Program-made: the position numbers and the translations under genes
The notes under the pieces: generated by a model
The model's input: the letters and a program-made list of their open reading frames with translations, nothing else
Databases searched by the model: none
Told to the model about the DNA's origin: nothing
Part shown: positions 12,041 to 13,005 of the stretch, piece by piece
How the letters are laid out: each line of letters begins with the position of its first letter
How positions within the stretch are numbered: the stretch's first letter is position 1
Assembly (NCBI GenBank): GCA_017409575.1
Contig: JAFQSM010000089.1
Coordinates: 1-64,000, forward strand
Reading direction: 5' to 3'
Origin: Clostridia bacterium
GTDB lineage: Bacteria > Bacillota > Clostridia > Monoglobales > Monoglobaceae
DNA length: 64,000 bases

Positions 12041-12114
12041 AGTAAAGCAGACAAGGGCGGTTTTTGTTGTCTTTAAAAAACAATATTTTTTGTCCTTAGT
12101 TTTACAAAATTATA

Positions 12115-12285
12115 TGCGGTCTGTGACCGCAATGAATTGCCTTGCGGCATGAATTGAAATCTGCGATTTCATAAATTGAGCCTTGTGGCTCATGAATTGC
12201 ACCTTTGGTGCATTTTAAGGCAATTCAATTCATGGAGCGATAGCGAGAATTCATGGCGTAGCCAATTCATGATAGCTTAAGTTGT
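12115..12285. repeat. Array of short hairpins separated by CATGAATTG / CAATTCATG units
   Basis: Within the 315-base gap after the glycosylase, at least five small stem-loops follow each other. Examples are GCGGTC-TGT-GACCGC, AAATC-TGC-GATTT, AGCC-TTGT-GGCT and CACC-TTT-GGTG. Each is separated by ATGAATTG or a close variant. From about 12220 the spacer appears in inverse orientation, CAATTCATG, around GCGATAGC and GCGTAGC. The left spacers can pair with the right ones, so the whole block can fold on itself. The spacers differ, there is no cas gene and the units are too short for CRISPR. It resembles a small non-coding mobile or regulatory repeat. Bases 12041-12114 hold only a weak AGACAA/TTGTCT hairpin. 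Confidence 0.85.
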
Positions 12286-12327
12286 CAATTCGTTTTTGAT
12301 TTTAACTTGGTTTTAGCCATATTGATA

Positions 12328-12344
12328 TGTCGAAAGATGTCGAA
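12328..12344 (+). promoter_or_regulatory. Tandem 0A-like boxes (TGTCGAA twice, 10-base offset)
   Basis: TGTCGAA at 12328-12334 and again at 12338-12344 both match the core of the Spo0A binding site. The second copy touches the SD of the next gene. They could equally be a 10-base direct duplication of ATGTCGAAAG. Confidence 0.4.
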
Positions 12345-12355
12345 AGGAGAAATGT

Positions 12356-12856
12356 ATGGACAATGATGTTAAATTAGTATTAGAAACAGACAATACTTTA
12401 ATAGAATTTAAAGTTATCGATTATAAAACAAAATTAGCATACTGCGATACACAAAATAAGGTTGACTATTTGACAAAAACAAATGAAGTAGAATGTTACT
12501 ATTATTTTAGTAGTGAAGGTATAGGCTGGGGTTCTGTCAGCGATGTATATATAACAACAAAAGATTTAGAATTATTATCAAAAGGACTTTCTCAAATACT
12601 AATAGATAAAACAAAGAAACTGCATTTTGAAACAGAGAAAAGATTGTTTGAAGTTGATGTTGTTGCAACCGGTGAAAAATACAATTTTTGCTTTAAAATC
12701 ATTGATGGACTTGAGGACGTTTGGGTGGAAACAACTTTTAATAATTTGAATGAAGAGCAGTTTAAAAAATATATAATTCTTTTTTTAGAGTGGTCAAGAA
12801 GATATCCTGTTCTTACGGAGGAACAGCTTTTCAATGTTGAAAAGGTTAGTTGGTAA
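12356..12856 (+). CDS. Hypothetical protein, possibly WapI-like immunity fold
   Basis: This 166-residue soluble protein has no signal or membrane segment. It is rich in Lys, Glu and aromatic residues and AT-rich compared with its neighbours. Alternating strands, a middle helix (KDLELLSKGLSQIL), more strands and a closing helix (NEEQFKKYIILFLEWSRRY) recall the layout of WapI-type immunity proteins. I see no diagnostic residues, so the resemblance is weak. It has a good AAAGGAG SD and follows the repeat array and tandem 0A-like boxes. The setting suggests accessory, recently acquired DNA. Confidence 0.7.
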   Translation: MDNDVKLVLETDNTLIEFKVIDYKTKLAYCDTQNKVDYLTKTNEVECYYYFSSEGIGWGSVSDVYITTKDLELLSKGLSQILIDKTKKLHFETEKRLFEVDVVATGEKYNFCFKIIDGLEDVWVETTFNNLNEEQFKKYIILFLEWSRRYPVLTEEQLFNVEKVSW

Positions 12857-13005
12857 GTGATTAATTTTTTGGGTTCTAACTTGACATAAACTTGACACCC
12901 AAAAGTTTTGCATCTAAACCTTATGTATCGCATTAACCGTAAATATGTGGCATCTAGATTATACAGTCTTTATAACGGAAAAATTTTTAAAAAGGAGAAA
13001 TTTCA

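Follow-up and report, generated by a model that had tools for sequence, protein, structure and literature searches.

A dispersed hairpin array of Clostridia that may be the solo leader of a small S23 mobile element

The window analysed here is a stretch of 64,000 nucleotides from a Clostridia bacterium (contig JAFQSM010000089.1). Between protein genes it carries a solo feature, which consists of a left stem-loop (12116 to 12130) followed by a 164-bp array (12131 to 12294) whose borders were set from homologous copies. The preliminary description of this DNA had placed the feature at 12115 to 12285, correct within 10 bp. The array has seven stems, with the spacer CATGAATTG in its first part and CAATTCATG afterwards. 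Direct reading and a repeat search locate the linkers AATGAATTG at 12131, CATGAATTG at 12148 and 12191, and CATAAATTG at 12170, and the inverted linkers CAATTCATG at 12226 and 12263 and GAATTCATG at 12247. Each linker pair encloses a small stem of differing sequence; the centre AAGGCAATTCAATTCATG precedes the inverted linkers CAATTCATG, and the array terminates in CAATTCGTT. Both approaches hence recover what had been noticed earlier, i.e., differing hairpins separated by linker units that then appear inverted. The parts are as follows.

12116 to 12130, + strand: target-side stem-loop GCGGTC-TGT-GACCGC, adjoining the left end of the array (from the sequence; identical stem at loci L054 and L119)
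12131 to 12294, + strand: hairpin array, the mobile repeat proper, AATGAATTG...CAATTCGTT (borders from homologous copies; covariation)
12133 to 12141, + strand: TGAATTGCC, with a possible 9-bp pairing to the centre GGCAATTCA (12219 to 12227), a rival of stem 1 (paired in 60/60 copies)
12138 to 12149, + strand: stem 1, TGCC-TTGC-GGCA (97.9% of cells paired; one-sided variation only)
12155 to 12171, + strand: stem 2, TGAAATC-TGC-GATTTCA (two-sided change in 4/7 pairs)
12177 to 12192, + strand: stem 3, TGAGCC-TTGT-GGCTCA (two-sided change in 4/6 pairs)
12198 to 12212, + strand: stem 4, TGCACC-TTT-GGTGCA (two-sided change in 2/5 pairs)
12219 to 12234, + strand: conserved centre GGCAATTCAATTCATG, where the linker orientation flips (near-invariant in the alignment)
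12235 to 12246, + strand: stem 5, GAGC..GCGA, elsewhere TTGC..GCAA (62.5% standard pairs; two alternative forms)
12254 to 12264, + strand: stem 6, TGGC-GTA-GCCA (two-sided change in 2/4 pairs)
12270 to 12287, + strand: stem 7, TGATAGC..GTTGTCA, in most copies TGACAAC..GTTGTCA (two-sided change in 2/6 pairs)
12303 to 12338, + strand: degenerate AACTTGGTTTGCATCTAAACCTTATGTGTCG module, a possible right end or a separate module (by-eye similarity to the right flanks at loci L012 and L010; an inference for the window copy)

Directly 3′ of the array, a 166-aa protein without a Pfam or NCBIfam match is encoded at 12356 to 12856 (+). Further on, positions 12866 to 12974 (about 110 bp) hold another repeat of dispersed type with a promoter-like make-up (TTGACATAAACTTGACACC...GCATCTAAACCTTATGTATCGCA...GGCATCTAGATTATACAGTCTTTATAA); it has 76 to 90% matches at many sites in relatives, and related modules stand behind many solo arrays. 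No covariance model of Rfam 15 matched at 12116 to 12294, and no group II ribozyme was found by Rfam in the window, its sole gathering-score match being a TPP riboswitch elsewhere (1865 to 1970, - strand, 69.2 bits).

Folding of the region 12080 to 12320 as RNA gave -71.4 kcal/mol (z = -3.97), a value equalled by none of 200 shuffles. Across the whole window, CATGAATTG-like 9-mers are not enriched (23 versus 31 expected); the signal lies in their clustering within 140 bp. In an alignment of 60 distinct copies, the seven stems comprise 36 pairs and 93.8% of the pairs are standard. Two-sided change was observed in 17 of the 36 pairs and in 64 cells, compared with 5.6 pairs and 8.7 cells in shuffles, and none of 500 shuffles reached these values; when the partner was slid by 1 to 3 columns as a control, only 3 to 6 pairs remained. 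The covariation test suggested earlier is thus significant, and selection on the pairing of the array stems is supported. The accompanying claim that structure rather than sequence is selected holds for the first half only: the two-sided changes speak for selected pairing, but the sequence is conserved as well, with a mean column identity of 83% between copies.

Besides the local stems, the 5′ TGAATTGCC can form 9 bp with the central GGCAATTCA in all 60 copies, a pairing that is practically invariant and lacks covariation support. Because it competes with the first local stem, we infer that the array may have two alternative states. As a separate observation, stem 5 (alignment columns 112 to 124) reads either TTGC..GCAA or GAGC..GCGA, and the two forms exclude each other. 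In many cases the GAGC..GCGA form contains GCGAAGC, a known DNA mini-hairpin of very high stability.

The array is not confined to this locus. One more copy, which is truncated, is present in the genome of the window and matches over 119 bp with 84% identity; a search for the exact CATGAATTG chain in this genome gave no match, the pattern being too strict. Of 100 relatives, 20 had matches at E<=0.1, and many of these matches span all 165 bp with 82 to 91% identity; of 391 genomes sampled evenly across the class, 26 had matches at E<=1e-10. When the central 18-mer was used as a probe, 83 stretches were recovered, nearly all from Clostridia or Oscillospiraceae metagenome-assembled genomes (MAGs), mostly of herbivore guts. 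The 18-mer matches in Verrucomicrobia, Opitutales, Janthinobacterium, Paenibacillus and Planctomicrobium were taken as chance, as nhmmer found no array there. With a profile search, the number of distinct copies in Clostridia MAGs came to about 107. Full copies measure 160 to 165 bp, start with AATGAATTG and end with CAATTCATT or a close variant, and their flanks are unrelated. The idea of a non-coding mobile repeat put forward in the preliminary description is borne out by these dispersed copies with sharp ends; what would have refuted it, a single-copy region without conserved pairing, is contradicted by the matches in relatives together with the covariation.

No constant direct target duplication was seen in the flanks of the copies, the right end of the element being unsettled. 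A GCATCT-like motif occurs in the right flanks of 39 of 90 copies versus 10.5% of control random stretches; this module 3′ of many solo copies may belong to the element as its 3′ end, or it may be a dispersed module in its own right. Tandem copies exist, with three at locus L086 and several on contig JAFWXR010000037. Integron-like cassettes were considered for them and rejected, as no recurrent integrase was present. For the window copy, the upstream gene is present in relatives and no syntenic empty site was recovered. Phage and plasmid collections queried with the array DNA gave no match; among viral contigs, the central 16-mer had 16 matches, and only one of these contigs (locus L134) bears the array. 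A literature search limited to open-access PMC found no account of such arrays.

A perfect stem-loop abuts the left end of the array with no base in between in 76 of 94 copies, compared with 9 of 94 on the right side and 2.7% of shuffles. About 50 different stem-loops serve as left neighbours, some of which are the intrinsic terminators of tRNA-Leu or tmRNA genes (loci L108, L110 and L076). Two stem-loops recur, GAGTTTGC-NNN-GCAAACTC and GATTTCATC-NNN-GATGAAATC, usually right 3′ of a promoter-like TATAATG, and they also stand before other array families. These recurring stem-loops at unrelated loci look as if they had been carried along, whereas the terminators and the arms at rumA described below look like target. 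Because of this difference, no single simple insertion rule can be given yet. In the 7628 region of locus L104, a perfect palindrome, ATGTTATAATGAGTTTGC-AAA-GCAAACTCATTATAACAT, has no array behind it and resembles a fold-back copy of a -10 box plus stem.

In several genomes, an array of one of at least two linker families lies, in differing host backgrounds, at the 3′ end of a gene that we take from its sequence to be rumA, encoding a 23S rRNA uracil methyltransferase. The 5′ arm of the abutting stem consists of the last host codons before the array (HVE-S/T/C-V...LL) and the 3′ arm is new sequence; at three loci (L046, L056 and L081), the stop codon of rumA falls within the element's AATGA. 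The inserted ends folded with -20.4, -24.0, -17.7, -21.1, -28.1, and -5.3 kcal/mol, compared with -1.4 to -9.6 kcal/mol for 16 uninserted orthologs, and the stem-loop was seen only where the array is inserted. The 3′ arms vary among species in step with the local codons; therefore, the arm is made from the target or chosen by pairing with it. Template switching during replication is able to create such stems (PMC8794818).

Among unrelated copies, only one neighbour gene recurs. In 18 copies, a gene for an S23 (23S-rRNA-IVP) four-helix-bundle protein starts 14 to 18 nt 3′ of the array, and 3 of these 18 genes are decayed remnants. This recurring protein (MKENKLVDLSKQFAVDIVNLC...) matches PF05635 23S_rRNA_IVP (E=1.6e-24) and TIGR02436 (four helix bundle protein), and 2RLD is a solved relative. 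Homology among the S23-bearing copies stops at about the S23 stop codon. Other families were sought with a generic array detector, by a PF05635 search of 100 relatives and by inspection of upstream sequence. Subfamilies of S23 were found to have their own linkers within the same array plan, namely CATGAATTG, AGCTAAAT, ATATCGC, ATATCGA, AGTGATATT, ATGAAATA, and ATGATATA. Under the strict detector, an array lies upstream of 28 of 55 S23 genes, downstream of 0 of 48 and in no shuffled upstream sequence. The upstream fraction is biased upwards by 14 of the 55 genes that came from array-based searches, and about half of the sampled S23 genes lack an upstream array by this strict criterion. When the linker types, 8 in number, were mapped on a tree of 28 S23 proteins, 7 changes sufficed, which is the minimum possible; shuffles required 18.3 changes on average, and none of 200 came as low as 7. 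Arrays and S23 also co-occur across genomes (13/15 versus 23/85, p=1.9e-5; within the window's own family 8/8 versus 7/30, p=1.3e-4); both tests used the same 100 genomes, and kinship of the genomes was not fully controlled. Since the only S23 of the window genome (MESPLLNKSLEFATQ...) belongs to another subfamily, the window copy is probably now an orphan.

Several further occurrences of S23 were recorded. S23 is also present on two phage contigs from the human gut, one with a AGTGATATT array and the other with a ATGAAATA array, and the AGTGATATT array stands directly behind a tRNA terminator. Three array families (AGCTAAAT, CATGAATTG, and ATGAAATA) follow in a row at positions 1299 to 1903 of locus L016, the last of them upstream of an S23 gene. 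Small membrane-protein ORFs (e.g., MKRKLLLLNIAIIIPCLFVYIGILP...) occur directly after S23 in several linker families (loci L160, L086, L164, L146, and L176) and are possible cargo. S23 genes with degenerate tandem repeats upstream were noticed, in other phyla too, on a Nostoc plasmid (pTCL26-01_B, L236), where the gene is located between cas2 and cas1, and in Bernardetia (L237), Treponema saccharophilum (pTS1, L233) and Monoglobus (L232). By eye, the repeats are inverted downstream in some of them; their excess over shuffles is significant only for Nostoc. An arrangement with S23 flanked on either side by arrays in inverted orientation was looked for across phyla; it exceeded shuffles in a minority only and is not claimed.

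We lean towards reading the feature in the window as the 5′ leader of a small S23 mobile element, here in a solo copy that is non-autonomous and MITE-like. The full element would consist of a hairpin array with family-specific linkers, about 15 nt of spacing, and an S23 ORF of about 117 codons. The cognate S23 protein is inferred to recognise the repeated linkers between the leader hairpins, as RNA or as single-stranded DNA. Exposed strands with a stem-loop at their end would be the sites of insertion; the adjacent target, through being copied in inverted form or through pairing, might give rise to the stem or extend it, and host enzymes would perform the strand transfer. S23-less copies such as the window's may have been moved in trans or may be relics. 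Mobility and the tie to S23 are well supported by sequence, while the mode of movement is inferred; neither this tie nor the position behind host hairpins was visible to the preliminary description. All of the evidence for mobility is comparative and comes from source genomes that are nearly all MAGs, many of them incomplete; no movement was observed and there are no transcript data. To our knowledge, S23 has no catalytic activity, which counts against the S23-element reading.

Alternatively, the array could be mainly a cis-acting leader RNA that is bound by the S23 encoded behind it in autoregulation, solo arrays regulating or stabilising other mRNAs, and that spread by recombination between 5′ regions. 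The co-orientation of 64 of 81 copies with the downstream gene, many of them within 150 nt of the gene start, would suit such a role, as would the promoter-like TTG-N17-TATAAT just upstream of about half of the copies (46/96) and the match between S23 and linker. However, upstream genes are equally co-oriented (67/82), as would be expected if terminators and gene 3′ ends are the places behind which insertion occurs, and copies behind tRNA or tmRNA terminators and at rumA ends are not obvious leaders. Moreover, fixed ends in unrelated flanks need a mobility step anyway. We regard a mainly regulatory role as unlikely, without dismissing it. A REP/BIME-like repeat moved by a Y1 transposase (IS200/IS605 or RAYT) that recognises single-stranded DNA hairpins would account for the rows of short palindromes that occur in either orientation, and Y1 domains of 250 to 280 aa do exist in some genomes, including the window's. 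Their presence is nevertheless not associated with arrays (10/15 versus 39/85, p=0.17), five array genomes have no Y1 (with the caveat of incomplete assemblies), and no Y1 gene recurs beside the copies; the S23 association is stronger and accounts for the linker types, and we consider Y1 transposition improbable.

Movement in trans by a reverse transcriptase (RT), of a group IIC intron-like or DGR-like kind with S23 in the role of Avd, is suggested by the use of hairpin targets in group IIC introns and in DGR homing (PMC3240598), and by the membership of Avd and S23 in the same Pfam family. Weak PF05635 matches adjoin RVT_1 in three genomes (G078:C24 5011/5863, G067:C21 18816/17778, and G088:C105 1879/672), probably as Avd-RT pairs of DGRs. 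Against an RT, RVT_1 is found in only 2 of 15 array genomes versus 28 of 85 others, and it is missing from the window genome as well as from the remaining 13; we find this route very improbable. Equally little credence is given to the absence of any dedicated mobile element, the hairpins arising from replication template switching and S23 being merely a neighbour. A single such event can make perfect stems and restore pairing (PMC8794818), and at rumA the new 3′ arm repeats, in inverted form, host codons that lie close by. Nonetheless, template switching leaves unexplained why one 160-bp sequence with fixed ends recurs at unrelated loci and in different families, and why S23 and linker match; it may still be one step of insertion. 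Returning to the S23 element, linker and S23 subfamily correspond so strictly that binding of S23 to its own array can be tested directly, and the position behind hairpins suggests movement without a transposase or an RT.

Several known systems share traits with these elements. MITEs are likewise short, non-coding and dispersed, with terminal inverted repeats and a larger gene-bearing relative, and all full copies of the array have the AATGAATTG/CAATTCATT ends expected of such an element. In contrast to MITEs, the parent of the array carries S23, the sole recurrent neighbour gene; no transposase-bearing parent with common ends was found, and the position behind stem-loops is fixed. REP/BIME repeats with RAYT also chain short palindromes in both orientations, but the stems of the array differ mutually while its linkers repeat, and the linked gene is S23; no Y1 transposase was linked to the copies or associated with them across genomes. 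Group IIC introns, too, insert directly behind intrinsic terminators (use of target hairpins as cited in PMC3240598), whereas the window has neither a ribozyme match in Rfam nor an intron-encoded protein.

S23/IVP proteins have been known since the description of 23S rRNA intervening sequences (IVSs), which RNase III excises from the RNA. The function of the protein is still given as unknown, the IVS being proposed as mobile and S23 as its mobility factor (PMC4990558). The IVSs of Coxiella and Leptospira share with our elements a PF05635 protein, a single ORF, base-paired ends, a location at hairpins and a proposed mobility, and at about 430 to 580 bp they are short like the S23 array elements (PMC4990558). 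The S23/IVP protein itself is present in the S23-bearing relatives (PF05635, TIGR02436), the window copy being solo. Unlike an IVS, which lies inside rRNA, the array elements are intergenic, behind terminators, promoters and gene ends; copies were found behind tRNA, tmRNA and protein genes and not in a 23S rRNA helix. Their leader is an array of linkers and hairpins, and solo arrays occur. It is possible, though we would put it forward only tentatively and with more doubt than confidence, that S23 elements form a widespread minimal mobile class without transposase or RT, built of one four-helix-bundle protein and a cognate hairpin-array leader in which the linkers act as a recognition code specific to the subfamily. 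Such elements would insert behind stem-loops and make or lengthen the stem with sequence that is complementary to the target, and the 23S rRNA IVS would be a special case. DGR homing needs a target hairpin whose stem sequence is free (PMC3240598), and Avd of the DGRs belongs to the S23 fold family. Arrays differ from DGRs in having no adjacent RT, template or variable repeat, and RVT_1 is absent from the window genome and from 13 of 15 array genomes. Since the defining feature is missing in each case (the RT, or the location in rRNA), the array is a member of neither the DGRs nor the IVSs. The likeness to DGR target hairpins, which are needed for their structure and not their sequence, and to IVSs is a functional analogy plus a common protein family. 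If the S23-element reading is true, it would tie the IVS proteins to the Avd of diversity-generating retroelements, which depend on a target hairpin but leave its sequence free (PMC3240598).
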